Below the pieces are notes generated by a model, which saw nothing but the letters and a program-made list of their open reading frames with translations, did no database searches and was not told the DNA's origin. DNA of 40,391 nt from positions 1 through 40,391 of the forward strand of contig JAFUWG010000034.1 of the NCBI GenBank assembly GCA_017483605.1, written 5' to 3'. Each line of letters opens with the position of its first letter. The first letter of the stretch is position 1. The stretch comes from Bacteroidaceae bacterium (GTDB lineage: Bacteria; Bacteroidota; Bacteroidia; Bacteroidales; Bacteroidaceae). The translations under genes and the position numbers were made by a program. Shown here one piece after another: positions 295 to 36,644 of the stretch.

Positions 295-363
295 GTGGTC
301 TGAGTCAGACCGCCGAGGAGGTGTGACTCAGACCACCTGGGCGGTGTGAGTCAGACCACTTGG
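295..363. repeat. Array A: three palindromic units, 23-bp period
   Basis: The core TGA(G/C)TCAGACC occurs at 301-311, 324-334 and 347-357, exactly 23 bp apart. The first copy sits in the near-perfect palindrome GGTCTGAGTCAGACC (297-311); the other two carry one extra mismatch. The array starts about 45 bp downstream of the mnmA stop codon. The rest of 1-407 holds only the element at 24-208. Confidence 0.8.
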
Positions 364-407
364 GATGTGACGAGTGTGTCATTTTGTCCTATTACAAGGG
401 GGATTTG

Positions 408-1502
408 CTAATTGATTTCGCCGCTGCCGAAACAGAGGTGGTGGTGGGCATCGTAGATGACACAGAACTGGCCTGGAGCAACGCCGTGGATTTTCTGGTC
501 GGCTTGGAGGAAATAGCGGCCATCTTCACGCAGAGAAAGGGTGCCCGGAAGGTATTCGGGGGTGTGACGAATCTTGAAGGTGACTCGCATGGAGGGCGTG
601 TCGGATGGGAGGAGTTGGCTCCGGAAATGCGGGTCTTCGAAAGGATTGTCGGTGATGAAATGGAAGTCGTTCATCGTGATGTGGTCTTTGTACACCTTCT
701 CGGGGTCGTAGCCGTGAGAGACAAAGAGAATGTTACGCTTGAGATTTTTCTTCACGACAAACCAAGGGCCGCCACCGAAACCGAGCCCTTTTCGCTGACC
801 AATGGTGTAGAACCACAGCCCTTTGTGTTCTCCGATTTTATGCCCCGTTTCGATTTCACGCACATCGCCTGGATTCTCGCCCAGATGGGCTTTGATATAA
901 TCGCGGAAATCGATATTGCCCAGAAAACAGATGCCTTGGCTGTCTTTGCGTTCGGCATTCAGGAGATGGGCTTTCTCTGCAATTTCACGCACTTCATGCT
1001 TCCACAGATGCCCGATGGGAAACTTGAGTTTGGATACTTGCAGAGAGTTGATTTGGCAAAGGAAATCCGTCTGGTCTTTCACGGGGTCGGGCGATGTGGA
1101 GAGCCACACTTTTCCGTCGATGGTTGTGGTGGTGGCATAATGTCCTGTCGCCGTCTCATCAAACTCCTTGCCGGCAACCTCTTCAAAGCAACCAAACTTG
1201 ATGAGTTTGTTGCACATCACATCGGGGTTGGGCGTGAGCCCCTGACGTGCCTTGTCCATGGTGTACCCCACAACCTTGTCCCAATATTCGTTGTGCAGGT
1301 CAATCACGTCGAAAGGCAAGCCATACCGACGGGCAAGCCACTGACAAATCTCCACATCCTCCTCGGAGGTGCAGTTCCATTCGGTATCCTTGTCGGGACC
1401 AATCTTGATATAGAAAAGGTGCGGGTCAATCCCCTGCTCTTTCAGCAGATGGACGGAAACGGCGGAGTCCACCCCACCGGAAACTAAGGCTGCGACAGAC
1501 AT
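408..1502 (-). CDS. mnmA: tRNA-specific 2-thiouridylase MnmA
   Basis: MnmA installs the 2-thio group on the wobble uridine of tRNA Lys, Glu and Gln in the cytoplasm, using ATP and sulfur relayed from a persulfide donor. The protein has 364 residues, normal for the family. The PP-loop SGGVDS lies at residues 8-13. The catalytic cysteine pair is C97 (in DVMCNK) and C191 (in QGICFLG). The central tRNA-binding and C-terminal beta-barrel domains are present (HTPEYLPGTL, GQFCVIYD). It follows nadA by only 4 bp, so the two are probably cotranscribed from the promoter upstream of nadA. Family assignment is firm from the motifs. Confidence 0.96.
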   Translation of the reverse strand: MSVAALVSGGVDSAVSVHLLKEQGIDPHLFYIKIGPDKDTEWNCTSEEDVEICQWLARRYGLPFDVIDLHNEYWDKVVGYTMDKARQGLTPNPDVMCNKLIKFGCFEEVAGKEFDETATGHYATTTTIDGKVWLSTSPDPVKDQTDFLCQINSLQVSKLKFPIGHLWKHEVREIAEKAHLLNAERKDSQGICFLGNIDFRDYIKAHLGENPGDVREIETGHKIGEHKGLWFYTIGQRKGLGFGGGPWFVVKKNLKRNILFVSHGYDPEKVYKDHITMNDFHFITDNPFEDPHFRSQLLPSDTPSMRVTFKIRHTPEYLPGTLSLREDGRYFLQADQKIHGVAPGQFCVIYDAHHHLCFGSGEIN

Positions 1503-1506
1503 TTAT

Positions 1507-2526
1507 TTACTTACTTGACATTGCAGATTTCAGATTCTTGCTAATCTCCAGCATCTTGTCAATCGGCTTCACTGCCTGACGAGCAATTTCGGGGTCCACT
1601 TCGATGGTAGGCCATTCGTATTTCAAGGTGTTGTAGAGTTTCTTCAAGGTGTTGAGTTTCATGAAAGAACACTCGTTGCATGAACAGCCAATGGTCTCGC
1701 TGGCTTCGGGAGGTGCAGGGATGAAAAGTTTCTCGGGACACGCCTTGGTCATCTCGTGCAGGATGCCACTTTCGGTTGCCACGATGAACTCTGTCGCTTC
1801 ATCCTTGATGGCAAAATTCAGCAGGCCTGCCGTAGAACCAATGACATCTGCCACCTTCTGAATAGGTGCAGGACATTCGGGATGCACCAAAATCTTTGCA
1901 TTCGGATGCTCTGCCTTCAGGGCAAGAATCTTCTCCAGAGAGAACTGTCCGTGTACGTGACAACCACCATTCCACAACAGCATCTGCCGTCCCGTAATGG
2001 AGTTGATATAGTCTCCCAAGTTCTTGTCAGGGCCGAAGATAAGTTTCTCATCCTGAGGGAATGAGTCGATGACCAATTTAGCGTTACTTGAAGTGACGAC
2101 CACATCCGTCAGAGCCTTCACGGCTGCCGTCGTGTTGACATAACTGACCACCTTGTGATCTGGATGTTCGGCGATGAACTTCTTCAAGTCTTCGGCGTTG
2201 CAACTGTCGGCAAGCGAACAACCGGCATTCAGGTCGAGCACCAGCACTTTCTTGTCAGGACAAAGAATCTTGTTGGTTTCGCCCATGAAATGAACGCCAC
2301 ACATGACGATGATGTCAGCGTCGGTCTTTGCCGACCACTGTGCCAACGCAAGCGAATCACCCACAAAGTCAGCAATGTCCTGCACGGCACCGTCTGTATA
2401 GTAATGTGCCAAAATGACCGCATTCTTCTCCTTGCACATCTTGCGGATTTCGGCATTCAAGTCAATTCCTTCGGGGATAGGTTCATCGACATACCCCTTC
2501 TCTTTCCAAGAATCTTTCACTTCCAT
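1507..2526 (-). CDS. nadA: Quinolinate synthase NadA
   Basis: NadA condenses iminoaspartate with dihydroxyacetone phosphate to quinolinate, the precursor of NAD, using a [4Fe-4S] cluster. The protein has 339 residues. Expected cluster cysteines are visible: C103 in AGCSLADSC, C189 in WNGGCHVH, and the C-terminal CSCNEC cluster (281-286). The HPECPAP motif is also present. It is the first gene of a nadA-mnmA unit. nadB and nadC, its usual partners, are not next to it here. A Bacteroidota -7 box lies 25 bp upstream of the start. Confidence 0.96.
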   Translation of the reverse strand: MEVKDSWKEKGYVDEPIPEGIDLNAEIRKMCKEKNAVILAHYYTDGAVQDIADFVGDSLALAQWSAKTDADIIVMCGVHFMGETNKILCPDKKVLVLDLNAGCSLADSCNAEDLKKFIAEHPDHKVVSYVNTTAAVKALTDVVVTSSNAKLVIDSFPQDEKLIFGPDKNLGDYINSITGRQMLLWNGGCHVHGQFSLEKILALKAEHPNAKILVHPECPAPIQKVADVIGSTAGLLNFAIKDEATEFIVATESGILHEMTKACPEKLFIPAPPEASETIGCSCNECSFMKLNTLKKLYNTLKYEWPTIEVDPEIARQAVKPIDKMLEISKNLKSAMSSK

Positions 2527-2550
2527 AATAACATATTTTTGAATTACGCT

Positions 2551-2559
2551 GCAAAGTTA
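2551..2559 (-). promoter_or_regulatory. Bacteroidota-type promoter for nadA-mnmA
   Basis: The minus strand reads TAACTTTGC, matching the -7 consensus TAnnTTTGY. A TTTTG lies about 19 bp further upstream at the -33 position. The box is 25 bp before the nadA ATG. Confidence 0.7.
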
Positions 2560-2611
2560 GTGAAAACCCGATGCAGAACAAAATAAATAGGTCTATTTTA
2601 AATATATTAAA

Positions 2612-4633
2612 CTATTGTATGGTGATTTCATTGACGCTTTCGCCTGGGGTTGTGTCGGCTTCTCGGGGAAAGTAAACGGGCATCTCCTTCTGCAAAGGCA
2701 GGATTCGCAGTTCGAGTTCCCGACAATCTTGAGGCAGCCGCCAAAGTCCGTAGAGGAAAGGACGACCATAGTAGAAGTTGTCGGCAATCAGTTTGCCTTG
2801 GCAATAAAGACGAGCCACATCACCTCGATAATTGATTTTCAGCAGACGATGCCCATTTTGCAACGCATCCTGTCCGAACGTGATCTTATAGACAACCGCT
2901 TGTTCAAAATCTTCATCAACAGGTTCTTCTGCCACCTTTTGTACACCGATGGTGATTTTTCGTGGAGCACCAGCTTCTTTCACCTTTGTGCATGAAACCG
3001 CATAAGCCACGTCTTCGCTACCTGGTTCGTCGAGGAACAAATGTTCTGCCTCGGCAGAAGAGAGGAGGTATATGTTTTGATAGACAGGCTTATTCACGCC
3101 TTTAGACTTCACATTTCGCAAAGTCTTGCCATTCAGGCAGATGGTCGTCGGGATGCCTTTTATCTGCTCCATGTAAATCTTACCGTCTCGCTTGGCAATC
3201 AACTGTGCGGTTGCGTAGGTGATACCGTCGATATTGATGGGAAAAATGCACATGGTGCCGGCAGGAATGTTCAGTTTGGGCAACTTCACGCCACACGCTT
3301 CCAACTGGACATTGTTCTTGGCTGAGAGGTTTTGCAGACGCTCGTAGTTGTTGATAAAGATGAAGCCACGATTGTCTTTAGAACGGTAGGACCAACGAAG
3401 AAAAGAATCGTCACCTTTTTCGATGTTCTGTGAGCAAGGGAAAGAAGCCTCCATCGGAGCCAAAACCTCGCCGTAATCCTGCATGAAGAGATGCAGTTTC
3501 CGCAACGCATAATACTGCGGATAGGTCTGTCCAAATTCGCCCAGCGGAGCCTGAAAGTCGTATGTCTTCACGGGCAAATCGTTATGGTTGGTGCCCAGTG
3601 TACGCTGATTTTCATTCAGATAGGTGATGCCTTCGGGGTTCGTGCCGCCGTGATACATATAATAGCCCAACAAATTGGAACCGCTGCCTAACTTCACCAA
3701 AGCCATCGAATAACTATCTTCGGGATAAATATACGGGCGACGATGGTATGCCGTTGCCATTCCACCTCCCAACTCACAAGTAAAATAAGGGTATTCGCCA
3801 TCACCCTTGGTCACGCTCTCCTTCTGTGCCCCCAACAAGTCTGTACCGATGGCTGTTGAGGAACGAAAACCTTTGAAGTTGAACGCCTTATAATAGTTTC
3901 CACTGGTCTCTTTGGTGTTCCGTTCCCAAAATCCATCTGCATAATCGCCATAGAGCGGCAGCATCTCTCCAAAGGGAACGGGCTTGGAAAGTTCCGGCCA
4001 TCCCGTGCGAGTGTAGAAAGGCAACTCGAAACCTATCTTCTGGGCAATATTCTTCAATGCCATCAGGTAATCTCCGGAGCCGCGATACTCATTGTCGAAC
4101 TGACATGCCATCAGCGGACCGCCATCCTTCCACTGCAAACCAACAATCTGGGAGAAAATCTGCCTGTAAAGTTTTTCCACATAGGCCAGAAAGACCTTGT
4201 CCTGCGAACGAAGTTTGCATCCTTTCTCAAACATCCAATCAGGAATGCCGCCATTTCGAACCTCGCCATGACAGAAGGGGCCAATGCGGAGGATGACAGG
4301 CAGACCTTCTTGCTGGCAAACTTCGAGGAAACGACGCAAATCACGTTGTCCGCTCCAGTTAAAGATACCCTCCTGCTCTTCGATATGGTTCCAAAACACA
4401 TAAGTGGCGATGATGGTCACCCCACCCTCCTTCATCTTCTTCACTTCCTGCTGCCATTCGTCGGCAGGAAGGCGGGAATAGTGTATCTCTCCCATGACCG
4501 GAACCACACGCTTTCCATCAAGAATCAAACTCTGAGCATCCCATTCCACTTTTGCAATGTGTTGAGCACCAGCAGAAAGAGATACGTGTTGCAAAAAAAG
4601 AGCCAACGCGGCAATCAATAGCGACCGTTTCAT
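2612..4633 (-). CDS. Secreted GH35 beta-galactosidase
   Basis: A glycoside hydrolase of family 35, which removes terminal beta-galactosyl residues from glycans with retention of configuration. The protein has 673 residues and begins with a Sec signal peptide ending near SAGAQ (residues 1-24), so it acts in the periplasm or outside the cell. The barrel signature MGEIHYSR is at 47-54. The acid/base glutamate is E182 (FDNEYRGSG) and the nucleophile is E287 (YFTCELGGG); a conserved YMYHGGTNP stretch follows. The C-terminal third is beta-rich and probably a jelly-roll domain. It has its own promoter and no SusC/SusD pair beside it. The substrate cannot be read from sequence; beta-galactosidase is the usual activity of GH35. 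Confidence 0.93.
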   Translation of the reverse strand: MKRSLLIAALALFLQHVSLSAGAQHIAKVEWDAQSLILDGKRVVPVMGEIHYSRLPADEWQQEVKKMKEGGVTIIATYVFWNHIEEQEGIFNWSGQRDLRRFLEVCQQEGLPVILRIGPFCHGEVRNGGIPDWMFEKGCKLRSQDKVFLAYVEKLYRQIFSQIVGLQWKDGGPLMACQFDNEYRGSGDYLMALKNIAQKIGFELPFYTRTGWPELSKPVPFGEMLPLYGDYADGFWERNTKETSGNYYKAFNFKGFRSSTAIGTDLLGAQKESVTKGDGEYPYFTCELGGGMATAYHRRPYIYPEDSYSMALVKLGSGSNLLGYYMYHGGTNPEGITYLNENQRTLGTNHNDLPVKTYDFQAPLGEFGQTYPQYYALRKLHLFMQDYGEVLAPMEASFPCSQNIEKGDDSFLRWSYRSKDNRGFIFINNYERLQNLSAKNNVQLEACGVKLPKLNIPAGTMCIFPINIDGITYATAQLIAKRDGKIYMEQIKGIPTTICLNGKTLRNVKSKGVNKPVYQNIYLLSSAEAEHLFLDEPGSEDVAYAVSCTKVKEAGAPRKITIGVQKVAEEPVDEDFEQAVVYKITFGQDALQNGHRLLKINYRGDVARLYCQGKLIADNFYYGRPFLYGLWRLPQDCRELELRILPLQKEMPVYFPREADTTPGESVNEITIQ

Positions 4634-4664
4634 TTACTTTTGTTTTTAAGGTGATATTTGATGT

Positions 4665-4673
4665 GCAAAGGTA
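4665..4673 (-). promoter_or_regulatory. Promoter -7 box for the GH35 gene
   Basis: The minus strand reads TACCTTTGC, a full match to TAnnTTTGY, 32 bp upstream of the GH35 start codon and just downstream of the hairpin that ends the preceding gene. Confidence 0.65.
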
Positions 4674-4697
4674 TTGATTTTTAGCCAATCTACAAAC

Positions 4698-4757
4698 TTT
4701 TATACCAAAAAACGCCCCAGACAAAATCATGTTTTGTCTGGGGCGTTTGATATAAAA
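4698..4757. terminator. Strong hairpin terminator
   Basis: A perfect 17-bp stem (4710-4726 against 4732-4748, AAACGCCCCAGACAAAA) closes a 5-nt loop. The pairing continues outward through AT-rich flanks with small bulges to about 4698-4757. It lies about 50 bp downstream of the stop of the lysozyme-like gene and upstream of the GH35 promoter, so it most likely insulates the two. Confidence 0.85.
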
Positions 4758-4808
4758 GACTTTTTGATAGAACTCTGGAGGAATCTCCGGTTCTTCATCT
4801 TTTCTCAA

Positions 4809-5246
4809 TTATTGCAGAGCAGCCATGCTGGTGTACTTCGACATTACTCGCTTGTAGTAACCCTCAGTACGAGCCTTGCGTGTCATGCACTTCAGGTCGC
4901 CCGAGTTCCAGAGACGAATGGCTCTTTCCATGTTGCCATCTGGATTGTAATGCTCCTGATAGTCGATGAACATATCAATGCTCTTCTGCTTGTTATAACG
5001 GTCAGCGTAAGTGTATTTCTTGTATCCAACGATACGGTTGCACTCGCGCACGAGGATTTCGGAAATCTGCAGATAACCGACGTAGAGTCCATTCTTCGAT
5101 ACTTGATTGGGCTGGCATTCACTTTCTACCATCGCAATGGCATGAATAACCGCACCCCATTTCTTCTGAAGATCTACCTTTGCAGGAGTCTCTGCGACTG
5201 CTGTCAAAGAAATAGTCATCAGTACTAATACCAATAATTTCTTCAT
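4809..5246 (-). CDS. Small secreted lysozyme-like (transglycosylase-fold) protein
   Basis: A 145-residue protein with a clear signal peptide (MKKLLVLVLMTISLTAVAE). The mature part resembles a minimal lytic-transglycosylase/lysozyme fold: IAMVESEC holds the candidate catalytic Glu, followed by GLYVGYLQIS and, near the end, AIRLWNSGD. Such proteins cut or bind peptidoglycan in the periplasm. It is transcribed divergently from the TPR/AraC regulator, sharing a 229-bp control region, so that regulator is a candidate controller. The fold call is by motif only; cleavage activity is an inference. Confidence 0.6.
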   Translation of the reverse strand: MKKLLVLVLMTISLTAVAETPAKVDLQKKWGAVIHAIAMVESECQPNQVSKNGLYVGYLQISEILVRECNRIVGYKKYTYADRYNKQKSIDMFIDYQEHYNPDGNMERAIRLWNSGDLKCMTRKARTEGYYKRVMSKYTSMAALQ

Positions 5247-5279
5247 ACAATCTTATACTTTAGTTCCTGAAAAACCGCT

Positions 5280-5288
5280 GCAAAGTTA
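5280..5288 (-). promoter_or_regulatory. Promoter -7 box for the lysozyme-like gene
   Basis: The minus strand reads TAACTTTGC, a full consensus match, 34 bp upstream of the start codon at 5246. Confidence 0.65.
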
Positions 5289-5318
5289 TGCCTTTTTTGT
5301 GAAACGACCAAATATTTT

Positions 5319-5364
5319 ATGCTTTTTAGCATGTTTTTCGATGAAAATTTATGTTTTTTAGCAT
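5319..5364. promoter_or_regulatory. Two palindromic operator-like repeats in the divergent promoter
   Basis: ATGCTTTTTAGCAT (5319-5332) and ATGTTTTTTAGCAT (5351-5364) are direct repeats 32 bp apart. The first has perfect inverted arms ATGCT/AGCAT. Both sit between the two divergent -7 boxes at 5280 and 5416, a good place for a shared regulator to bind. Confidence 0.45.
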
Positions 5365-5415
5365 TTTTTTGCCCTAAAAAGAGGATTTCGATTTGGATAC
5401 GGAAGAGGAAAAGCG

Positions 5416-5424
5416 TACCTTTGC
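5416..5424 (+). promoter_or_regulatory. Promoter -7 box for the TPR/AraC gene
   Basis: TACCTTTGC matches TAnnTTTGY. A TTTGG lies about 20 bp upstream at the -33 position. The start codon follows 51 bp after the box. Confidence 0.7.
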
Positions 5425-5475
5425 ATACAGATTCATCCACCCCTGTGACACCTGTCACATCAACTGAAAGAAAAC

Positions 5476-7188
5476 ATGAAAGCCAACCTATATACATCAC
5501 TGAGAAACTGCACGTTTCTGCTGATGCTCCTGTTCCCGTACAGCCACCTGCAAGCAGATGATTTTGACGATTTACTTCAGGCATTCAATCAGCGAACAAA
5601 CGTTAAAACCGCCAACACCTATTTCAATTACCTGCTGAAAGAGGAGATGCTTGAGTCCCCAGTCGTCTTCAAAGCAGACACTCCAACTGATACGCTCTGT
5701 GCACAGGTTTGGTACTGGGCTGGTGAATGGTATTATGCCCAAGCCGAATATCAGCAAGCCTGCGACTATCTGCTCAAGGCCCTGCCTCTCCTGCAAAACG
5801 GGAAAGACCAAACGACGGAAGCAGACTGTCTGAACCTTTTGGCTGTCGCTTACGTTCGACTGAGCGATTACAATCACGCCTTGAAATATGCCAAATTATG
5901 CTATGCGATTGACAAAGCGAGTGGAGACCCAGATGTCATCAGTTCGTCGCTGAACACCTTGACTGGCATTTATTTGGGTGCGGGTCAACCTCAAGAAGCC
6001 GAAAACTATGTACTGAAAGGCATCAAAATGGCAAAACAGGCGAACAACCCAGGTCGTCTTGCCATCTTGCAAGGCATGGCATCTGAGGTTTATCACGCCT
6101 TGGGGAATGACCAAGAGGCCTTGAAGTATGTCGATCAGGCATACGAACTGGAACTGAAACTGGGACGAACAGACAAGGCAATGGTTCGTCTGACACAGAA
6201 AGCATCCGTGTTGATTGGACTGCACCAATACCTGAATGCCGAAGACGTATTGCAAGACGCCATCCCCTTCTTCCGCAATAACGGTGACCGACATTCACTG
6301 GGCATTTCGCTCAACAAAATGGGCATGACGCTTTTCTCTCAACAGCGAGAGGCGGAAGCCGTTCCCTACTACCGTGAGGCGGCGGAGATTTTCCAATCGA
6401 TGGGCGATATATATAATGAGGTACACGCACGAAAGGGCTTGTATGAATCGCTGTGGGAAAGCGACCCGGAAGAAGCCAAGCAGCATCTTGACCGTTTCAA
6501 CACCTTGAAAGATTCCATCTACAACAATACTTCTGCGGAGAGTCTTGCCCGCTACAATGCAGAATTCGGAAACGACTGGCTACAGTTGGAGAATCATGCC
6601 GAACGAACCGCCAAGCAACAAGCCATCATTGCTGGCATCTGCGTGACTGCCATTCTCCTCTTGTTATCATTTGGCATTTGGTGGGTGATGAGACGCCGCC
6701 ATCGCCAGCAGGAAAAAATCAATCAAGAACTCAGCGAACACATTGAAGCCCTGCGTGAACAATATCGCCAACTGAATGTTCACTATGACAATGCCATGAT
6801 GACCCACACCTCCCCCGACGAGGACAAGGACCTGACAGCATCCGACCGCGAATTTCTTGAAAAATCCATCAACATCATCAATGAACTGATCTATACGGGT
6901 CAAATTGATGCCGCAACCGTAGCAGACAAGATGGGCATGAGCCTTTTCCAATATCGTCAACGTCTCACCTCCATCACCGACGAAACCCCTCAGACGTTCA
7001 TTCAGATGCTGCGTATGCGTAGAGCACGCCATCTGCTCGACAATCATCACGAGTTGAATATCAGCGAAATCGCCACTCTCTGTGCCTACAATGACACACC
7101 CAACTTCACTCGCGCCTTCAAAAAAGCCTTTGGAATGACGCCTTCACAATACCTGAGCAATCGCCATCCCAACAATTCTAATACCTAA
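5476..7188 (+). CDS. Membrane-anchored TPR/AraC transcription regulator
   Basis: A 570-residue one-piece sensor-regulator. A signal or anchor segment (about residues 10-27, FLLMLLFPYSHLQA) precedes about 330 residues of tetratricopeptide repeats (for example YAQAEYQQACDYLLKALPLL), expected to lie in the periplasm. A transmembrane helix follows at about 382-402 (IIAGICVTAILLLLSFGIWWV), then a charged coiled-coil-like linker (RRHRQQEKINQELSEHIEAL). The C-terminus (about 475-565) is an AraC-type DNA-binding domain with two HTH motifs (AATVADKMGMS and ISEIATLCAYNDTPNFTRAFKKAFGMTPSQY). The architecture implies a periplasmic cue passed to DNA across the inner membrane. The ligand is unknown. The divergent lysozyme-like gene is the nearest candidate target. 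Confidence 0.85.
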   Translation: MKANLYTSLRNCTFLLMLLFPYSHLQADDFDDLLQAFNQRTNVKTANTYFNYLLKEEMLESPVVFKADTPTDTLCAQVWYWAGEWYYAQAEYQQACDYLLKALPLLQNGKDQTTEADCLNLLAVAYVRLSDYNHALKYAKLCYAIDKASGDPDVISSSLNTLTGIYLGAGQPQEAENYVLKGIKMAKQANNPGRLAILQGMASEVYHALGNDQEALKYVDQAYELELKLGRTDKAMVRLTQKASVLIGLHQYLNAEDVLQDAIPFFRNNGDRHSLGISLNKMGMTLFSQQREAEAVPYYREAAEIFQSMGDIYNEVHARKGLYESLWESDPEEAKQHLDRFNTLKDSIYNNTSAESLARYNAEFGNDWLQLENHAERTAKQQAIIAGICVTAILLLLSFGIWWVMRRRHRQQEKINQELSEHIEALREQYRQLNVHYDNAMMTHTSPDEDKDLTASDREFLEKSINIINELIYTGQIDAATVADKMGMSLFQYRQRLTSITDETPQTFIQMLRMRRARHLLDNHHELNISEIATLCAYNDTPNFTRAFKKAFGMTPSQYLSNRHPNNSNT

Positions 7189-7311
7189 AAAGTGTTTGCA
7201 AGGCTCCACTTTTGTTAACTGTTTGAGGTCGTTATGTTTCCGTTGGGGCGAATTTTACCAAATGATAAAATTACTTCACGAAATGATAATGCCTGTTTAG
7301 TCGCAGATTCT

Positions 7312-7320
7312 TAACTTTGC
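7312..7320 (+). promoter_or_regulatory. Promoter -7 box for the small ORF and possibly the downstream operon
   Basis: TAACTTTGC is a full consensus match, with the first ATG 16 bp downstream. I see no comparable box in 7553-7701, so this promoter may also serve the TMEM43-headed operon. Confidence 0.6.
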
Positions 7321-7336: not shown

Positions 7337-7552
7337 ATGACAAAGACGAAATATCAAGAATCTGCGATGAAATACGCCAAAGAGTATCTGGATCGTTTGC
7401 TCGACATGGAAGATGTCGTGGGGCGGAACGTGGAAAAGAAACTCGACAAGTTGGTGGAAGAGAAGATGCTGAAGTATATGAGACAGCCCTTCGGGAAGAC
7501 CAGTCCCCCACCAGAGGAAGAAACGCCTCCTAAGGACGGAAGTCGTTCATAG
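7337..7552 (+). CDS. Small charged hypothetical protein
   Basis: 71 residues if read from the ATG at 7337, which I prefer to the upstream in-frame TTG at 7328. The protein is a charged amphipathic helix (residues 5-45, many K, E and L) followed by a proline-rich acidic tail (SPPPEEETPPKDGSRS). It has no signal peptide and no recognised family. It has a good promoter box. Its last codons run into the palindromic array at 7545-7628, so the stop codon lies inside the first repeat unit. Confidence 0.6.
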   Translation: MTKTKYQESAMKYAKEYLDRLLDMEDVVGRNVEKKLDKLVEEKMLKYMRQPFGKTSPPPEEETPPKDGSRS

Positions 7553-7628
7553 TCGATGAACAATTATTCATCGACGGCGAACAAATATTCATCGACAACG
7601 AATAAATATTCATCGTCGATGAACAACG
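7545..7628. repeat. Array C: four palindromic units, 21-bp period
   Basis: Units begin at 7545, 7566, 7587 and 7608, exactly 21 bp apart, with cores GTTCATAGTC, ATTCATCGAC, ATTCATCGAC and ATTCATCGTC. The unit is itself a near-palindrome; the last copy reads TTCATCGTCGATGAA. The array begins inside the last codons of the small ORF and ends 73 bp before TMEM43. Confidence 0.85.
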
Positions 7629-22468: not shown

Positions 22469-22483
22469 AGGGTTATTTTAGGG

Positions 22484-22587
22484 TTTTAAGTTCGTAAGTT
22501 TTTGAGTTTTTAAGTTTTTGAGTTCGTGAGTTTTTATTCTCAACACCCCGAAAGGCAAACTTAAAAACTCAAAAACTTAAAAACTCA
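22484..22587. repeat. Octamer repeats forming a 22-bp inverted repeat
   Basis: The left side is a run of octamers of form (A/G)AGTT(TTT/CGT), and the right side is their complement. TGAGTTTTTAAGTTTTTGAG at 22503-22522 is part of a perfect 22-bp arm (22503-22524) pairing with 22566-22587; the 41-nt loop holds CACCCCGAAAGG. It lies directly 3' of lepA and 5' of the protease gene, and could be a terminator or a 5'-leader structure. Confidence 0.65.
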
Positions 22588-24492: not shown

Positions 24493-24607
24493 ATGACATA
24501 AAAAGCCGTTCCCGTCGGAAGCCAACGGATGCTCTCATCCGAAGCCAACAGATGTCCTCGACGGCTTTCTTCAGATGTCCTCGTCAGCAGCCAACCGCCC
24601 TCCCCTA
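24493..24607. repeat. Array F: degenerate units, 23-bp period
   Basis: CGGAAGCCAACGGATG (24516), CCGAAGCCAACAGATG (24539), CGGCTTTCTTCAGATG (24562) and CAGCAGCCAACCGCCC (24585) start exactly 23 bp apart. Only the second copy keeps a good hairpin (CATCCG around AAGCCAA and CAGATG). This looks like an older, decayed array of the same kind as the others. A further weak unit may precede it at 24493. Confidence 0.6.
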
Positions 24608-24651: not shown

Positions 24652-24766
24652 CTTAAAACTAAACTTAGATTTTATAAAATTCAAGTTAGATTTATATAAA
24701 TTTAAGTTCAATTTTATAAAATTTAAGTTGAATTTTATAAAATCTAAGTTTAGTTTTAAGAGAGGT
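24652..24766. repeat. Array B: AT-rich units of 21 bp within a 33-bp perfect inverted repeat
   Basis: Four 21-bp units begin at 24662, 24683, 24704 and 24725, each centred on a TTTATAAA or TTATATAA palindrome and joined by AAGTT. The outer arms 24652-24684 and 24728-24760 are perfect inverted repeats of 33 bp. The array lies about 100 bp downstream of the receptor stop at 24862. The remaining non-coding bases of 24401-24861 hold the lepA promoter and array F; I see nothing else there. Confidence 0.85.
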
Positions 24767-30016: not shown

Positions 30017-30031
30017 GGTGGCAGTGTGGCA

Positions 30032-30691
30032 TTATGGTTCAACAATCAGGGTGTCGTCGCTCAAAGTGAGGTGCAGTTGCTCAAAGTGATTGAGGTCGGC
30101 AATGATGCTTTCGAGCGTCGCCTGTTTGTTCCACCTGTAGAACAGACGGAGCGTATGCGCCTGCTTGCTGCGGATGGCGAGCGTCTTGCCATAGTGGTCG
30201 GCAATGGTGTGAAGAATCTCATCCAACGGCACATTCTCGAACGTGACAGCCTCTACCGCCACAGCCGTCGAATCATTCGGCAGCACTTCCTCCAGATTCG
30301 TCACATTCGTTTCATTCGTTGTTTCTGTCGGCAAACTGAACAAATCGAACGAATGGACGTGCCGAGTCAGCCCGATGGCTGCGTATGTGATGCCCGAAAG
30401 CATCACCACCACGGCGACAGCGGCCGCCATCTTACGCCAACGCCATGAAGGATTGAAGAATTGAAAAATTGAAGAGTTGAAGTGCCGCTTCTCAAACTTC
30501 TTCCATTCTTCGTCCTTGAGTCCGTTGGCTATCTGCTGTTTCGCCTCACCCATTTGCTGAGCCGATTCGGTCAAACGCATCGTCTCGTAAAGTTCGCGAC
30601 ATTCATCGTCGGCAAGCATCTCTTGCAGTTGCTCGTCGGTGTACCTTTCGGGGTGTTCCATCATCATGAGGAACTGTTCAGTCTTGTCCAT
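30032..30691 (-). CDS. Short FecR-like anti-sigma factor (DUF4974)
   Basis: 219 residues. A cytoplasmic N-terminus (about 1-85, LADDECRELYETMRLTESAQQM), one transmembrane helix (about 90-110, MAAAVAVVVMLSGITYAAIGL), a linker, and a DUF4974-type STN-like domain (about 150-219, VTFENVPLDEILHTIADHYG). The larger FecR domain usual between helix and DUF4974 is missing, so the protein is about 100 residues shorter than typical. It overlaps the sigma gene by 14 bp. It is expected to hold the sigma factor inactive until a receptor signals through its periplasmic domain. Confidence 0.85.
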   Translation of the reverse strand: MDKTEQFLMMMEHPERYTDEQLQEMLADDECRELYETMRLTESAQQMGEAKQQIANGLKDEEWKKFEKRHFNSSIFQFFNPSWRWRKMAAAVAVVVMLSGITYAAIGLTRHVHSFDLFSLPTETTNETNVTNLEEVLPNDSTAVAVEAVTFENVPLDEILHTIADHYGKTLAIRSKQAHTLRLFYRWNKQATLESIIADLNHFEQLHLTLSDDTLIVEP

Positions 30692-31184
30692 TGTCTGATG
30701 ATTTAAAGTGATTCTTGATTCGTTTCAATGCCTGTGCCAGATGCTTGTACACGGCGGCTTCGCTGATGTTCAGTTCTGCCGAGATGTCGGCATACCGCTT
30801 CCGCTCTTGATAGTGCATGAGGAACACGCGGCGGGTCTGTTCCGTCAAACCTTCTTGACAGAAACGGAGCACACTTTCCAGTCGGTCAGCCTGAGGTTGC
30901 AGCGGCGTGATGTCCGCTTCATCGTCCAGTGCCAGCAGTTTCTGTGCTCGTTCCCTCACCGCCTTTCCCCGAAGCACTTTCAGGCATCGGTTCCGCACAC
31001 ATGTCATCAGGAAACTTTCGGCTGTGTCGGGACGCACCTCCACCGTGCCGTCAAGCACCGAGGCGAACACCTCGCTCACAGCATCTCTGCTTTCCTCGTC
31101 ATCGTGCAGCAGTATCTTGGCCAACAGATACATCCTGTCGTAGTGTGCGAGAAAAAGTTCTTTTATCGTTTCCTTATCTGTCAT
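30678..31184 (-). CDS. ECF RNA polymerase sigma factor
   Basis: 168 residues from the ATG at 31184 (MTDKETIKELFLAHYDRMYLLAKILL). Region 2 is at about 10-75 (DAVSEVFASVL), and region 4 at about 115-160 with the HTH RYADISAELNISEAAVYKHLAQALKRIK. It is the first gene of the sigma / anti-sigma / receptor 2 / receptor 1 operon and probably drives that operon and a few distant genes. No clear -7 box was seen in front of it, which fits a self-regulated promoter of different sequence. Confidence 0.93.
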   Translation of the reverse strand: MTDKETIKELFLAHYDRMYLLAKILLHDDEESRDAVSEVFASVLDGTVEVRPDTAESFLMTCVRNRCLKVLRGKAVRERAQKLLALDDEADITPLQPQADRLESVLRFCQEGLTEQTRRVFLMHYQERKRYADISAELNISEAAVYKHLAQALKRIKNHFKSSDNGQD

Positions 31185-31316
31185 GTCACGTAGCGTTTTT
31201 ATCTTTAATACCCCTAAGGTCGCTCTTTCCCAACCCCCTCGGCTCACTTTTTTTGATGTAATTTTGATTTTTCCCAACCCAGAGTCTCCCTTATAAAATA
31301 TTTGTGTCACCAGAAT

Positions 31317-31385
31317 CGTACCCGAGGGGTACAATAAGGTGTACCCCTCGGGTACGGCATGCCGTAGTCGAGGGGTACGATATGA
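31317..31385. repeat. Array D: three palindromes, 23-bp period
   Basis: CGTACCCGAGGGGTACA (31317), TGTACCCCTCGGGTACG (31340) and CGTAGTCGAGGGGTACG (31363) are exactly 23 bp apart with 6-bp spacers. Copies 1 and 2 carry perfect mutual inverts (GTACCCGAGGGGTAC and its complement). It lies about 100 bp downstream of the DUF2582 stop and 130 bp upstream of the sigma gene. Confidence 0.88.
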
Positions 31386-31419
31386 CAGGGAAGTCACATC
31401 CCTTTATCCTTACTTCCGT

Positions 31420-31460
31420 AAAAAATGCGTTGCCCACCCCATGGTGAGCAACGCATTTTT
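31420..31460. terminator. Terminator of the DUF2582 gene
   Basis: AAAAATGCGTTGC (31421-31433) pairs perfectly with GCAACGCATTTTT (31448-31460), with further partial pairing inside the loop and a T-run on the minus-strand side. It begins 20 bp after the DUF2582 stop. Confidence 0.88.
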
Positions 31461-31479
31461 ATAGTTGTCAAGCAACTAA

Positions 31480-31692
31480 TTACTTGAGAGAGTAAGCGTA
31501 GGGATCCTTCTCGTCGCCAGTCTCTACGGCGTTCACCTTGTCCTCACGGAGCAACCAGCCAAGACCGAGGTTGAAATCCTTCTCTGCAAGTTTTGTCGCT
31601 TTCTTAATTTGCTTGAATGTCTGTGCAGCCTCTGCCTCAGAAAGAGCGTTCCAAATGAGACCTGCAATGTTTCCTGCTTTTTCCTGTAACAT
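31480..31692 (-). CDS. Winged-helix protein, DUF2582 family
   Basis: 70 residues. The sequence (AGNIAGLIWNALSEAEAAQTFKQIKKATKLAEKDFNLGLGWLLREDKV, quoted here only by its landmarks AGLIWNAL, QIKKATKL and LGWLLREDKV) fits the DUF2582 winged helix-turn-helix family, small cytoplasmic proteins presumed to bind DNA. It stands alone with its own promoter box and terminator. The target is unknown. Confidence 0.85.
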   Translation of the reverse strand: MLQEKAGNIAGLIWNALSEAEAAQTFKQIKKATKLAEKDFNLGLGWLLREDKVNAVETGDEKDPYAYSLK

Positions 31693-31775
31693 AATCTTAA
31701 ACCTTACCTTTAATTTGTTAAACTTATTTGTTGTGGAATTAGGGGGATTTTGATGGTTCTTCTCCTAAAACCGAT

Positions 31776-31784
31776 GCAAAGTTA
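31776..31784 (-). promoter_or_regulatory. Promoter -7 box for the DUF2582 gene
   Basis: The minus strand reads TAACTTTGC, with a TTTTG 19 bp upstream at -33: a full match to the Bacteroidota promoter. The leader is about 75-80 nt. Confidence 0.72.
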
Positions 31785-31897
31785 CGACCTTTAGTTAAAA
31801 AAACAAAACTTTTGCAAGAAAAAATCAAGAAAAAGTTACTAAAAAAGAAGAAATTAGGTAAAAATACACCAAAAGCACCCATGCAAAAGTCAAAATG

Positions 31898-31915
31898 GCT
31901 GTGTACGCACACAGC
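31898..31915 (-). terminator. Weak hairpin terminator downstream of the small lipoprotein gene
   Basis: GCTGTGT (31898-31904) pairs with ACACAGC (31909-31915) across a 4-nt loop. On the minus strand a T-rich stretch follows (CATTTTGACTTTT). It is 96 bp after the stop codon at 32011. Confidence 0.45.
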
Positions 31916-31926
31916 AAATATAAAAA

Positions 31927-32017
31927 TATATAATTTATAATGTCTAATTTATAATAGCCATGCGGCTTGTTGGCATCGCGTCAGCCCTATTATAAATTAT
32001 ATATTATAAATTATATA
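31927..32017. repeat. MITE-like repeat, copy 1
   Basis: The 31-bp arms (31927-31957 and 31987-32017) pair at all but two positions. The core GCCATGCGGCTTG, then CATCGCGTCAGCCC, is shared with copy 2 at 32440-32525. The right arm supplies the last codons and stop (AAT ATA TAA) of the lipoprotein gene. The rest of 31693-32010 holds a promoter and a weak hairpin. Confidence 0.82.
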
Positions 32018-32430
32018 TTACTTTTGTAGTCCTTTGGAGTGAAATGATATTCCACCATTTTGTCGCCTGTCGCAGCATCGTGATAGATGTAGGTGAAACT
32101 AACTCCTGCATCTTTATGCTTGGCAAAAAGAACGGAATTGCGAACCACCTTTAAGTTTTCGTCGCCGATGTCACCAAGTTTGTCCATAAAGGCTGTCCGC
32201 TGTTCGTCGGTCAGTTGCAGCGAGTAGTACAACTTGAGGTCACCCACGGTACTGTCGTTGGGGGTGAATACCATGCTGTCGAGGGTGGTCACCCCATCGC
32301 CATAGGGTTGAGGGCAATGCGTCTGGGTGTATTCCCGTGCTTCCCGCTCAAAACGGTCTTTCCGTTTCTCCTGGCAAGAGGAGAGCACCAGAATGGTCAA
32401 TAATAATATATAAGATACACGTGCGTACAT
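32011..32430 (-). CDS. Small lipoprotein of unknown function
   Basis: 139 residues from the ATG at 32430 (MYARVSYILLLTILVLSSC, lipobox LSSC); a longer upstream reading runs into a repeat and is unlikely. The mature protein is charged, with a beta-prone centre (VGDLKLYYSLQLTDEQR) and a closing VSFTYIYHDAATGDKMVEYHF. I do not recognise the family. It lies between two copies of a MITE-like element, and its stop codon comes from one of them. Confidence 0.7.
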   Translation of the reverse strand: MYARVSYILLLTILVLSSCQEKRKDRFEREAREYTQTHCPQPYGDGVTTLDSMVFTPNDSTVGDLKLYYSLQLTDEQRTAFMDKLGDIGDENLKVVRNSVLFAKHKDAGVSFTYIYHDAATGDKMVEYHFTPKDYKSNI

Positions 32431-32439
32431 ATTTATTCC

Positions 32440-32525
32440 CATATATAATATACAATTTATAATTGCCATGCGGCTTGCACACATCGCATCAGCCCTATTA
32501 TAAATTACACATTATAAATTATATA
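32440..32525. repeat. MITE-like repeat, copy 2
   Basis: The core (GCCATGCGGCTTG at 32465-32477, then CATCGCATCAGCCC) matches copy 1 with five changes. The right arm (32495-32525) differs from copy 1 at two or three positions. The left arm is shorter by several bases. Its right edge abuts the stop codon of the TSCPD gene at 32526-32528. Confidence 0.82.
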
Positions 32526-32780
32526 TTATTTCTGTATGACTTGCCGCAATGCCGTTGCCAACTGGTCGGGGCAACTTGTCGGCTTCATGCCACATCGCAC
32601 GCCTTCCAAGCGGCTGATGACATCTTCCGCCTTCATGCCACGCACCAACTGAGAGATGCCAGCCGTGTTGCCGGCACAACCACCCACAAACTGGACATTG
32701 TTGATGACACCCGTAGCGTCATCAACGTCCAGCATAATGGCTTTGGAACAAGTTCCTTTCGTTTCGTAAATCGTCTGCAT
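32526..32780 (-). CDS. TSCPD-domain protein
   Basis: 84 residues ending in the TSCPD motif (GMKPTSCPDQLATALRQVI), with cysteines in the pattern TKGTCSKAI, GGCAGN, VRCGMKPTSC. This small domain resembles the C-terminus of vitamin B12-dependent ribonucleotide reductases; the stand-alone function is not known. It starts 6 bp after yebC ends and is likely cotranscribed with it. Confidence 0.85.
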   Translation of the reverse strand: MQTIYETKGTCSKAIMLDVDDATGVINNVQFVGGCAGNTAGISQLVRGMKAEDVISRLEGVRCGMKPTSCPDQLATALRQVIQK

Positions 32781-32786
32781 GGCGGC

Positions 32787-33518
32787 TTACTTCATATTGG
32801 TGTACACATTCTGCACATCGTCAAACTCTTCGAGACGCTCCACCATCTTGTCGATGGTCTCACGCTGCTCGTCGGTCACTTCCTTCAGGTCATTAGGCAC
32901 GTAAGTGAACTCTGCACCTGTGATTTCGTAGCCACCATCCTCGAGGAACTTCTGAATCTGAGCGAACGACTTGGGATCACCATAGATGGTGATGGTCGTT
33001 TCGTCCTTCTCTTCATCGTACTCCTCATCATACTCATCGTTCACGCCGAACTCGATGGCTTCGAGGATGAACTCATCCATATCGAGACCTTCCTTCTTCT
33101 TGAAAGTGAACTGGCTGTAGTGGTCGAACAGGAACGAGAGCGAACCTGTCGTGCCCATGTTGCCGCTGAACTTGTTGAATACCGAACGAACGTCAGCCAC
33201 GGTGCGAGTGGTGTTGTCGGTCAAGGTATCTACAAACACAGCCACGCCGTGAGGGCCATAGCCTTCGTAAGTCACGCTCTTCCAAGCCGACTTGTCCTTG
33301 CCGATGGCATTCTTGATGGCACGGTCAATATTATCCTTTGGCATGTTCTCATGGCGACAAGTCGCAATGACAGCACGAAGGTGTGCGTTGTTGTCGGGGT
33401 CAGGACCGCCTTCAGCCACAGCGATGGCAAGTTGCTTGCCAAGGCGTGTGAAAGTCTTTGCCATGTTACCCCATCTTTTCAGTTTTCTCGCTTTACGGAA
33501 CTCAAATGCTCTTCCCAT
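32787..33518 (-). CDS. YebC/PmpR-family protein
   Basis: 243 residues, full length for the family. The N-terminus (MGRAFEFRKARKLKRWGNMAKTF, quoted by its landmark FEFRKARKLKRWG) and the central VTYEGYGPHGVAVFVD are typical. YebC proteins bind DNA as regulators in some bacteria and assist translation of difficult stretches in others. Here it sits after pheT and before the TSCPD gene, on the same strand. Confidence 0.95.
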   Translation of the reverse strand: MGRAFEFRKARKLKRWGNMAKTFTRLGKQLAIAVAEGGPDPDNNAHLRAVIATCRHENMPKDNIDRAIKNAIGKDKSAWKSVTYEGYGPHGVAVFVDTLTDNTTRTVADVRSVFNKFSGNMGTTGSLSFLFDHYSQFTFKKKEGLDMDEFILEAIEFGVNDEYDEEYDEEKDETTITIYGDPKSFAQIQKFLEDGGYEITGAEFTYVPNDLKEVTDEQRETIDKMVERLEEFDDVQNVYTNMK

Positions 33519-33570
33519 AATGTCATTTACTATTTTTATATTTACAATTTATTGTTCACAACGATTTTTG

Positions 33571-33714
33571 AACAACGAATTTTTCGAATTTCGCGAATAT
33601 CTATCGGGCAATGCACCTTCGGTGCGCCGAATAGAAACGAATGGCATTCGCTTTCATCCGTTGCCGCTTGCGGCATTCCTCATAAAATTCGTTTCATTCG
33701 CCAAATTCGTTGTT
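33571..33714. repeat. Structured intergenic element with inverted ends
   Basis: AACAACGAATTT (33571-33582) and AAATTCGTTGTT (33703-33714) are perfect 12-bp inverted ends, with continued partial pairing inside. Two compact hairpins lie within: GCACCTTCGGTGC (33613-33625) and TGCCGCTTGCGGCA (33662-33675). It fills most of the pheT-yebC gap and has no ORF. It may be a MITE-like repeat or a structured RNA. Confidence 0.6.
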
Positions 33715-33734
33715 TTTATAAAACTTTATCAGTG

Positions 33735-36257
33735 TTATCCTTTGCCACGAACGGTTGCTCCAGTCGCCTTGCAGATGTTCTGCTCAATCTTACTCATGAT
33801 GGCTTCGATGGCTTTGTCGTTCAGCGTCTTCTCCTCGCTCTGGAGGGTGAAGTTAACTGCATACGACTTCTTGCTGGCTTCAAGGTTCTTACCTTCATAC
33901 ACGTCGAAGAGCCTTACTTCCTTCAGCAGTTTCTTCTCTGCCTGATAAGCGGCAGCCTCAATCTGAGCAAACTCAACGCCTTCGTCAACGAGCAAGGCGA
34001 GGTCACGACTTACGGCAGGGAACTTCGAGAGGTCGTAATAGGAAACCGTCACCTTCTTGATGAGTTTCATGAGGCTCGTCCAGTTGATGTCGGCATAGAA
34101 GACAGGAGCCTCCACATCAAGTTTCTTTGCCACCTTCTTGGTCACAATGCCGAACTCAGCAATCTGCTTGCCGCCACGCTGTGTGATGGTCGTGGCAATC
34201 GAGAAGATGTCGTTCTTCTCCTCGCCGAACACAAGGGCACCGAATGGCACACCCAGACGCTTGAGAATGTTGAGCACGTAGGCTTTCATTTCGTACACGG
34301 TGCTTTCCTCGTCAGCATGTGCCCAGTTGCCGTTCACACGCTTGCCTGTCTGCCAGAGGCCGAGGTGATAGTCCTCGCTGTAGGCAGCCAGAATCTTCTT
34401 CGACGACTCGGCACTGGCTTTCAGCGTCTCGCCGTTCTCGTCCACCTTCTCCTGATTGCGTTCTGGAGCAAAGTAGTAGCAGTTGCCAAACTCGAAGAAC
34501 TTCAAGTCTGGCATACGGCGGTTGCTGTTGCAGGCGATGCACTCCAAGCCACCAAACAGCAACGTCTGACGCAACACACCGAGGTCTTGGCTCAATGGAT
34601 TCATCAGTTTCACGCTGTTCTCGGCCTTGTAGGTCTCACCGTCTTCATAGTAAGAAACCTTCGTCAGCGAGTTGTTGAGTATTTCGTTGAAACCGCAACC
34701 CACCAACTGTTCAGCCACGATGTTCTGCAGTTTATTGCTCTTGTCCAGTTCGCCCTTCGTGGTCAGCGACGAACGCACCTGCGAAGGAATCTCAATGTTG
34801 TTATACCCATAGATACGAAGAATCTCTTCCACCACATCGCAAGGCTTCTTCACATCCACACGGAAGGCGGGAGCCTTCACCTGCATCTTCTCGGCATCGC
34901 TCGAAAGAATCTCAAAACCGAGGTTCTTCAAGATGCTCTGCTGTGTCTCCACGGGCAGTTCCTTACCGATAAGGTCTGCCACATACTTGTAATCCACATC
35001 GATGATGGCATCCTGTGGCAGCGTGTCGTTCTTCACATCGACAATCTCCATGCTGATTTCGCCACCAGCCAACTCCTGTGCCAACATGGCGGCACGTTTG
35101 ATGGCATAAATCTGACCTGCGGGATCGATGCCACGCTCGAAGCGGAAACTGGCATCGGTCTGAAGTCCGTGACGACGGGCACTCTTGCGAATCCATGTGG
35201 GGTGGAAGTAAGCACTCTCGAAGAGCACATTCTTCGTGGTCTCATAAGTGCCACTACCCTTTCCACCAAACACACCGGCGATACACATCGGCTCTTCCAC
35301 ATTGCAAATCGCCAAGTCGCGGTCGCTGAGTTTGTGCTCCTCGCCATCCAGCGTGACGAATGGAGTGCCTTCTGGCAAGGTCTTCACAACCACTTTTCCA
35401 CCCTTCACCATATCAGCGTCGAAGCAGTGAAGTGGCTGACCGTAAGCCATCATGATGTAGTTGGTGATATCGACGATGTTGTTGATAGGACGCTGGCCAA
35501 TCGTAGTCAGCCTATCCTTCAACCACTTCGGGCTTTCTTTCACCTCGCAGTTCTTCACCGACACGGCACAATAGCGTGGACAAGCCTCCTGTGCTTCCAC
35601 CACCACATCGAACTTCAGGTCGTTGTTCTGCACCTTGAAGTCATCCACACTCGGACGATGCAGCGACGTCTCATAGCCGTTCTGCTTCAGATAGGCGTAG
35701 AAGTCGCGCGCCACACCCCAGTGCGAACAAGCGTCGGAGTGGTTGGGCGTGATATCCACCTCAATCACAAAGTCGCTCTCAATGCCGTAATACTTGGCAG
35801 CAGGTGTGCCCACCACCGCCGTCTCTGGCAACACAATGATGCCGTCGTGACTGTTGCCGATGCCGATTTCGTCTTCAGCACAAATCATGCCGTTCGACTC
35901 GATGCCACGCAATTTGCTCTTCTTGATGACAAACTCCTTGTCGCCATCGTAGAGTTTGCAACCCAACTGAGCCACAATCACTTTCTGACCAGCAGCCACA
36001 TTGGGTGCACCACACACAATCTGCTCCACCACACCATTGCCTTCATCGACAGTTGTCACGTGCATGTGGTCGCTGTTGGGATGAGGTTCGCAGGTCAGCA
36101 CCTGACCCACCACAAGACCCTCAAGGCCACCCTTGATGGACTGCACCTCTTCCACTGCCTCGACCTCCAAGCCCATGCTGGTGAGCGCCTTGCCCACTTC
36201 CTCGGCTGTCATGTCGAAGTCAACATATTCCTTCAACCATTTGTAAGAAATGTTCAT
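33735..36257 (-). CDS. pheT: Phenylalanine-tRNA ligase beta subunit
   Basis: 840 residues. It pairs with PheS to charge tRNA-Phe. Order: tRNA-binding EMAP-like domain (about 40-150, VGQVLTCEPHPNSDHMHV), B3/B4 editing domain (about 210-380, with CFDADMVKGGKVVV), B5 domain (about 400-475), and a C-terminal FDX-ACB tRNA-anticodon domain (about 745-840, SKFPAVSRDLALLVDEGVEF). The length is slightly above the usual 800-820. pheS is not in this window, which is usual in Bacteroidales. A promoter box lies 71 bp upstream. Confidence 0.97.
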   Translation of the reverse strand: MNISYKWLKEYVDFDMTAEEVGKALTSMGLEVEAVEEVQSIKGGLEGLVVGQVLTCEPHPNSDHMHVTTVDEGNGVVEQIVCGAPNVAAGQKVIVAQLGCKLYDGDKEFVIKKSKLRGIESNGMICAEDEIGIGNSHDGIIVLPETAVVGTPAAKYYGIESDFVIEVDITPNHSDACSHWGVARDFYAYLKQNGYETSLHRPSVDDFKVQNNDLKFDVVVEAQEACPRYCAVSVKNCEVKESPKWLKDRLTTIGQRPINNIVDITNYIMMAYGQPLHCFDADMVKGGKVVVKTLPEGTPFVTLDGEEHKLSDRDLAICNVEEPMCIAGVFGGKGSGTYETTKNVLFESAYFHPTWIRKSARRHGLQTDASFRFERGIDPAGQIYAIKRAAMLAQELAGGEISMEIVDVKNDTLPQDAIIDVDYKYVADLIGKELPVETQQSILKNLGFEILSSDAEKMQVKAPAFRVDVKKPCDVVEEILRIYGYNNIEIPSQVRSSLTTKGELDKSNKLQNIVAEQLVGCGFNEILNNSLTKVSYYEDGETYKAENSVKLMNPLSQDLGVLRQTLLFGGLECIACNSNRRMPDLKFFEFGNCYYFAPERNQEKVDENGETLKASAESSKKILAAYSEDYHLGLWQTGKRVNGNWAHADEESTVYEMKAYVLNILKRLGVPFGALVFGEEKNDIFSIATTITQRGGKQIAEFGIVTKKVAKKLDVEAPVFYADINWTSLMKLIKKVTVSYYDLSKFPAVSRDLALLVDEGVEFAQIEAAAYQAEKKLLKEVRLFDVYEGKNLEASKKSYAVNFTLQSEEKTLNDKAIEAIMSKIEQNICKATGATVRGKG

Positions 36258-36327
36258 ATCGTATTTATTTAGTTAAATTTCAGCCTTTTTACTAATAAAG
36301 TTCACGCACACGTGCGTAAAAAACGCT

Positions 36328-36336
36328 GCAAAGGTA
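36328..36336 (-). promoter_or_regulatory. Promoter -7 box for pheT
   Basis: The minus strand reads TACCTTTGC, a full match to TAnnTTTGY. Between it and the start lies a short hairpin CGCAC-AC-GTGCG at about 36305-36316, which may be a leader structure. Confidence 0.65.
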
Positions 36337-36575
36337 CGAAAAATTTGGGTAAGTGAATGAAAAGAGAATGCATTTTCTTTTCTGAACGAGGAAATTTTAT
36401 AGAATAAGTGAGCACAATACAAAACGAAGAACCATTTTTTTCGTTTTTATTGTCGAGCACAAGCACCTCACACGAAGTGAATGGCCGCACTTTTTTGTCT
36501 TTGCGACACGAAAGAAGGGAAAGGCTGAAGCCTCTCACACAACAACCCAAGAGCCAGGAAGGAAAGACCCCAAAA

Positions 36576-36644
36576 TCGACCACGTCGTGGTCGGTGCATC
36601 GACTACGACGTGGTCGGCGTGTCGATCACGACGTGGTCGATTCA
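36576..36644. repeat. Array E: three palindromes, 23-bp period
   Basis: TCGACCACGTCGTGGTCGG (36576), TCGACTACGACGTGGTCGG (36599) and TCGATCACGACGTGGTCGA (36622) are exactly 23 bp apart. The core CGACCACG-N-CGTGGTCG is a near-perfect palindrome. The array lies 31 bp after the rarA stop at 36675. The rest of 36258-36674 holds the pheT promoter and no ORF. Confidence 0.9.

Follow-up and report, generated by a model that had tools for sequence, protein, structure and literature searches.

Dispersed intergenic arrays of palindromic words with a 21- to 24-bp period in a Bacteroidaceae genome: candidate clusters of protein-binding sites in gene 3' spacers

We analysed a 40,391-bp stretch of DNA (the window; contig JAFUWG010000034.1, assembly GCA_017483605.1) from a Bacteroidaceae bacterium whose genome (the host genome) amounts to 3.06 Mb in 56 contigs and is 81.5% complete. 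A preliminary description proposed that five or six intergenic sites of the window share one design, namely three or four palindromic units repeated at exactly 21 or 23 bp, with a different sequence at every site. The sites are the following:

270..386, no strand assigned: family A element with a 23-bp period and three copies of the 15-bp word GGTSTGASTCASACC in its core (295-361); its outer arms are akin to TCGANRCCTCAAAA / TTTTGAGGYNTCGA
7542..7627, no strand assigned: family E array, four GTTCATCGWCGATGAAC-like units at 21 bp
24493..24607, no strand assigned: non-member, a degenerate 23-bp direct repeat without palindromes
24652..24762, no strand assigned: family D array with a 21-bp period and five AT-rich units, the whole 111 bp being a single long inverted repeat
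31318..31379, no strand assigned: family C array with a 23-bp period and three CGTACCCSWSGGGTACG-like units
36567..36649, no strand assigned: family B array with a 23-bp period and three CGACCACGWCGTGGTCG-like units (core 36576-36642), edges ACCCCAAAA / TTCAGAGGT

The design stood at five of these sites (295-363, 7545-7628, 24652-24766, 31317-31385 and 36576-36644), where none of 500 shuffles of each site equalled the observed palindromy and the period was exactly 21 or 23 bp, with three to five units rather than three or four. The sixth site, 24493-24607, has 57% self-identity at an offset of 23 bp, and its palindromy was matched by 54 of 500 shuffles, i.e., it is at chance level, so this site was excluded from the class. 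As for the proposed location past stop codons, array A lies 46 bp beyond the mnmA stop (408, minus strand), B 32 bp beyond that of a RarA-like AAA ATPase gene (36675-37925), D and C 99 and 100 bp past a stop, respectively, and the non-member 256 bp; array E agrees only through a doubtful small open reading frame (ORF) that it adjoins, and otherwise lies approximately 350 bp beyond an AraC-type gene (stop 7188). Stop distances and coding or intergenic status, here and below, come from our simple gene calls.

The idea of a class recognisable without regard to sequence held when 430,391 bp of host DNA (the window and 20 further stretches) were scanned for three palindromes of 16-17 bp with at least 19 of 24 pairs and a period of 17-40 bp. 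The scan returned 29 arrays, all of them intergenic, with periods of 21 bp (eight arrays) and 23 bp (21 arrays), versus 0.7-1.3 arrays of scattered period in each shuffled copy. With narrower palindromes (12-13 bp, periods 12-40) all 17 arrays were again at 21 or 23 bp, and with wider ones (20-21 bp) there were 30 intergenic arrays at 21 or 23 bp and two coding ones at 20 and 26 bp. A control of 200 kb of E. coli K-12 gave one match (period 22) at the threshold used and five at a looser one.

The class is also present in relatives, for which we scanned 80 PheT-bearing loci (1,387,075 bp; labels L denote loci and G genomes). These are mostly metagenome-assembled genomes (MAGs) of named relatives with Bacteroidaceae, Prevotellaceae or Bacteroidales as their label, and ruminants and horses are the source of many; the closest PheT proteins are 95-96% identical, in roe-deer, goat and water-buffalo MAGs, and 91% in Candidatus Minthosoma equi. 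There were 22 intergenic arrays, 17 of them with a period of 21-24 bp, and one coding array (shuffles 4-5). In a further 638,937 bp of same-genus stretches, nine of 11 intergenic arrays were at 21-24 bp, with two coding matches (shuffles 1.3), while no array was returned by the same kind of scan for G007 (60 kb) and G025 (20 kb). Some of the relatives' words are akin to host families (L101 to A, L105 to C, L089 to family I, introduced below), and others are unrelated to them, for example AATAATGCGCATTATT (L104), AAACGAGCGCTCGTTT (L121) and TCGAACCTAGGCTCGA (L148). When two of these arrays were followed through whole genomes, the word of L148 gave 30 matches in G069, 35 in G070 and none in G071 and G072, and that of L121 gave 17 in G073 and none in G074-G076. 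One architecture of dispersed intergenic arrays is thus shared across families of unrelated sequence.

The arrays had been called locus-specific, which they are not: their sequences do differ from site to site within the window, but each of the five is a copy of a dispersed family with members elsewhere in the host genome. A search of that genome with array A gave 89 matches (both strands counted at many places; 40 of 96 candidates scored), and the exact word GGTSTGASTCASACC occurs 275 times per strand, with none for the reversed-pattern control, which at three words per element corresponds by our division to approximately 92 family A elements. Profile searches of the 430,391-bp sample found 17 copies of A, four of B, three of C, eight of D and two of E (the second at L010:15886), whereas the non-member site found only itself; an additional family I, with CGRWGTGCCCCACWTCG at 3 x 23 bp, is present there in two copies. 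In family A the arms TCGANRCCTCAAAA / TTTTGAGGYNTCGA stand 65 bp apart, paired around the core, and family B has the inner part of these arms in common.

Fixed-length, dispersed intergenic copies with inverted arms are also what characterises miniature inverted-repeat transposable elements (MITEs). The arrays could accordingly be non-autonomous, MITE- or REPIN-like mobile elements without any host role, whose palindromes and arms are recognised by a trans-acting transposase and which remain at gene 3' ends as insertions elsewhere are purged. The species-specific family sets suit this explanation: A-like elements occur in 15 of 37 same-genus genomes (host included) and in none of 24 from other genera; a period-24 form of family A is matched in 13 of 45 same-genus genomes, being plentiful (45-68 word pairs) in G010, G011, G013, G014, G034, G036 and G068; and a family of G064, with 31 matches at about 15 places in that genome, has none in the host. 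L093 lacks array C in its syntenic spacer, two host A junctions are the two halves of a single G017 junction, which places a rearrangement at A sites, and the host genome has one clear Y1 transposase gene (PF01797). Against mobility, no clear target-site duplication was seen in 38 A elements with any boundary tried, the exact ends being uncertain; two-word A patterns had no exact match in viral contigs, and no DNA similar to family A was present in plasmid and phage collections. PF01797 had no match at E<=1e-3 in G010, G011, G013, G014, G034 and G068, and G036 has a match below the family cut-off. Y1 is thus undetected in six of the eight genomes richest in A, although these are drafts, several of them 83-92% complete, so that absence is not proof; a link to RAYT is unsupported, even though the host has one Y1 gene. 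The REP tags GTAG/CTAC are absent within 30 bp of the core in 39 A elements, and CGTC or GACG stands no more than 10 bp from either end of the core in eight of the 39, with no consistent tag.

Positions turn over at the scale of the genus, as mobile elements would. At orthologous gene ends that bear an array in the host, the relative had an array in none of 27 comparisons, and an array was present in the relative only in two of 218. Distant positional conservation had seemed possible from an earlier 2x2 comparison with two joint cases (p = 0.02), which we discounted since one joint case came from an artefact in a tRNA region and the choice of some stretches had favoured the neighbourhood of arrays.

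Given the wider result, the junction past the gene ending at L052:618, picked because host and G034 both have family A there, has to be read as a selected case. Arrays are present in eight of the 15 species loci returned and absent from seven, and this one convergent junction carries different words in the same design: family A at 23 bp in the host and at 24 bp in G034, GGGAGAGAGTCTTACCC in G064, GGGAGTGAGTCACACCC in G007, CGATGTCGWCGACATCG-like words in G003, G017 (three units) and G025 (two units), and AGGTAAGAGTCTCACCT in G035 (two units, by eye). The gene beside it is 98.9% identical between host and G064, and the arrays are nevertheless different. At a second junction compared in this way (host family I, L019:14373), the scan detected no array in any of the relatives shown.

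Several other places allow such comparisons. One array at one place has two 23-bp units in L179 (G025) and three in L180 (G017), a clean one-unit difference. At L028:4218-4361 there is an AT-rich palindromic array of 23-bp period, TTGATTATACAAAATAATTTGGC, and the orthologous place in G013 (L031) has a family A array. Host and G064 also have in common a 2.4-kb segment (L235:15927-18321 and L236:2898-5293) that is 95% identical, its inner 1973 bp 98.9%, compared with 87% for the other gene compared; it is a recent exchange ending a few bases past the stop, at the array. We considered cassette exchange here and rejected it, since the case resembles ordinary homologous exchange that stops where homology stops.

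The position of the arrays relative to genes bears on both a DNA and an RNA role. Among 30 elements of families A-E and I for which the genes on both sides were called, 10 lie in convergent gaps, 18 in tandem and two in divergent ones; convergent gaps make up 9.2% of element-free intergenic bp (p = 2e-4), while the deficit in divergent gaps is not significant (p = 0.11). The proposed location in gene 3' spacers therefore gained support from orientation. Some elements occupy the entire gap between two stops, with 7-31 bp left for family I and about 20 bp for family A at L052 and L062.

Such placement would suit runs of RNA hairpins that terminate transcripts arriving from either side or shield the 3' ends of mRNAs, a role suggested at the outset. 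Many A, B and I cores also have AAAA/TTTT edges, the predicted folds are very stable (-55 to -75 kcal/mol for the six elements folded), and in four of five relatives (by eye) a simple terminator hairpin follows mnmA where the window has array A. Compensatory pairing of the kind expected of intrinsic terminators was, however, not found in family A: left and right halves showed no covariation (arm z 0.0) in 39 elements, a set that includes one mis-registered row (L018:17939) and the L024 four-unit element twice, and inside the words, S4 and S12 could pair with each other in just 42 of 117 cases. In the middle word, the two halves agree less well than after shuffling (z -5.4), for which polarity of the A element is the probable reason. 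In addition, array C is preceded, on the side of the stop, by a separate terminator-like hairpin, which L093 retains while lacking the array. A terminator finder was positive at four of eight ends before D, one of two before C, eight of 43 before A, none before B (0/4), E (0/2) and I (0/4), and at 17 of 106 array-free gene ends, rates that are weak evidence due to the low sensitivity of the search. RNA structure also gives no reason for a period limited to 21-24 bp or for words frozen in sequence, and a search of the window in Rfam 15 gave no match at gathering score. Taken as the general explanation, RNA hairpins are improbable and weakened by these results; the hairpin in the place of array A and the strong folds mean that some sites may act as terminators.

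How strongly the words are held became evident in sister species. G010 and G011 are collinear, with large blocks of approximately 87-91% identity. Among 19 G010 arrays, 14 have a two-sided orthologous place in G011, four do not and one falls in a gap too wide; an array is present at 13 of the 14 places, and two of these 14 concern weak AT-rich matches (one present, one absent in G011). All 12 clear arrays are thus kept, and in the reverse direction 12 of 12 placed arrays are kept, with six unplaceable.

We counted changes in 13 pairs of family A arrays (10 from G010/G011 and three from G013/G036), with flank alignments below 60% identity dropped; unfiltered flanks differ by 15-18%. Fixed word positions changed in 3 of 468 cases, spacers in 28 of 234 and flanks in 313 of 3198. 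The three degenerate (S) word positions changed in nine of 117, always C<->G, a type that accounts for 14 of the 313 flank changes, and seven of the nine fall at the palindrome centre. One of the G013/G036 pairs, L289/L300, has only the left flank in common and is possibly not orthologous; when the G013/G036 pairs are left out, the counts are 3/360 for the word, 5/90 for S, 13/180 for spacers and 231/2540 for flanks. The 117 host words of family A all conform at the 12 fixed positions and never have A or T at the three S positions, and across 112 words of the period-24 species there are two deviations and one T at S, in a tally that admitted up to two mismatches, required a partner at 23 or 24 bp and left other words uncounted. 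At orthologous sites, family A words are therefore more constrained than spacers, as in a cluster of operators, which idle mobile copies would not show; overall, we regard mobility without a host role as somewhat unlikely. Between G010 and G011, two A arrays 35 kb apart (G010:C3:73775 and 109352, G011:C21:75326 and 110985) have their variants exchanged, as if swapped.

The C<->G switching, mostly at palindrome centres, resembles template-switch inversion, and one spacer is exactly inverted between the L289 and L300 copies. Together with the one-unit difference between G017 and G025, this could suggest that mutational dynamics alone are at work, with quasi-palindromes growing and being homogenised by slippage and template switching. 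It seems very improbable, as dispersal with shared arms, and fixed words beside drifting spacers, would be left unexplained. We read the frozen words and the restriction of change to C<->G as sequence-specific recognition together with inversion of palindrome centres.

Our hypothesis, to which we give close to an even chance, is that the arrays are dispersed clusters of operator-like sites, retained in the 3' spacers of genes and recognised by a putative dimeric protein with sequence specificity. Each array would be a compact dispersed DNA element with three (up to five) operator-like words, the putative binding sites of a dimeric DNA-binding protein, spaced by 21-24 bp or about two helical turns, so that several dimers could sit on much the same helix face and possibly cooperate or bridge to other arrays. 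Such elements would spread by copying and remain in gene 3' spacers, convergent ones especially, with selection keeping the words; their likely task would be that of a roadblock or insulator at the ends of transcription units, or of an architectural site. We infer the protein, its cooperative binding, selection as the cause of constraint and the task. A boundary or DNA-site role, one of those first suggested, would accordingly be the best-fitting reading. Several observations speak against it: family A, found in a minority of same-genus genomes, must have a role that is dispensable at genus level; array positions were not shared with relatives (0/27, and 2/218 in the relative only); the predicted RNA folds are strong; word constraint was measured for family A alone; and the words of families B and C are visibly degenerate in the host genome.

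The host also has other repeats. A dispersed long hairpin of about 110 bp with 8-bp units (AAGTTCGT / TTTTGAGT) lies at 22476-22587 of the window and at L010:4243, and another hairpin, AT-rich, also dispersed and some 90-110 bp long, has units resembling AATTCATGAA / AATTCGTGG every 11 bp or so (60-180 of the window, L011:10728, L018:16465 and L024:6974). At 31925-32020 and 32497-32529, 7- or 14-bp units (ATTATAAATTATA) flank a small ORF.

Parts of the design are known from other systems. ERIC and YPAL are intergenic long imperfect palindromes of about 110-170 bp in many copies, as are the arrays here, and they are not known to have an internal tandem word array. Iterons are repeated protein sites approximately two helical turns apart, and matS sites are many per chromosome. 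Unlike iterons, operator clusters and matS, the present arrays are triple sites, dozens of them, located in the 3' spacers of genes, with a protein that is only putative. Porphyromonas gingivalis, the host of the BrickBuilt elements, belongs to the Bacteroidales like the present host. BrickBuilt is a MITE with a 23-nt minisatellite unit, AGAYCATARTATCCTCTCRTRTG, and ends that match ISPg elements (PMC4596501); it resembles our arrays as an intergenic, dispersed, tandem 23-nt repeat inside an element with inverted ends. However, the palindromy of its unit is 0.75 versus 1.0 for idealised A, B and C units, and one copy has 18 full repeats (PMC4596501) versus three to five units here; we reject identity since unit sequences and palindromy differ. 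REP, BIME and REPIN sequences with RAYT are short intergenic palindromes in many copies and species-specific families (PMC3733652); our arrays are unlike them in having three evenly spaced palindromes at a 21-24 bp period, strong word constraint at orthologous loci and Y1 undetected in most A-rich genomes. No earlier description of such arrays was found in the titles and abstracts searched, with subscription papers and preprints outside this scope.

Intergenic palindromic repeats have hitherto been classed by sequence, while here the number of words, their spacing and their symmetry group families unrelated in sequence. This structural signature spans gut Bacteroidaceae, and the sister-species comparison places the words of one family under strong constraint. 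A broader hypothesis, doubtful as it is, would see in the arrays genome-wide insulator-like or architectural sites of Bacteroidaceae, read by fast-diversifying putative DNA-binding proteins; the specificity of the words would then turn over between species while the three sites, the 21-24 bp period and the outer arms stay. The C<->G switching at palindrome centres offers a natural record of palindrome inversion in bacteria, and if it is true that a protein reads the words, the arrays would represent a novel type of chromosomal mark at the ends of genes, its specificity evolving fast.

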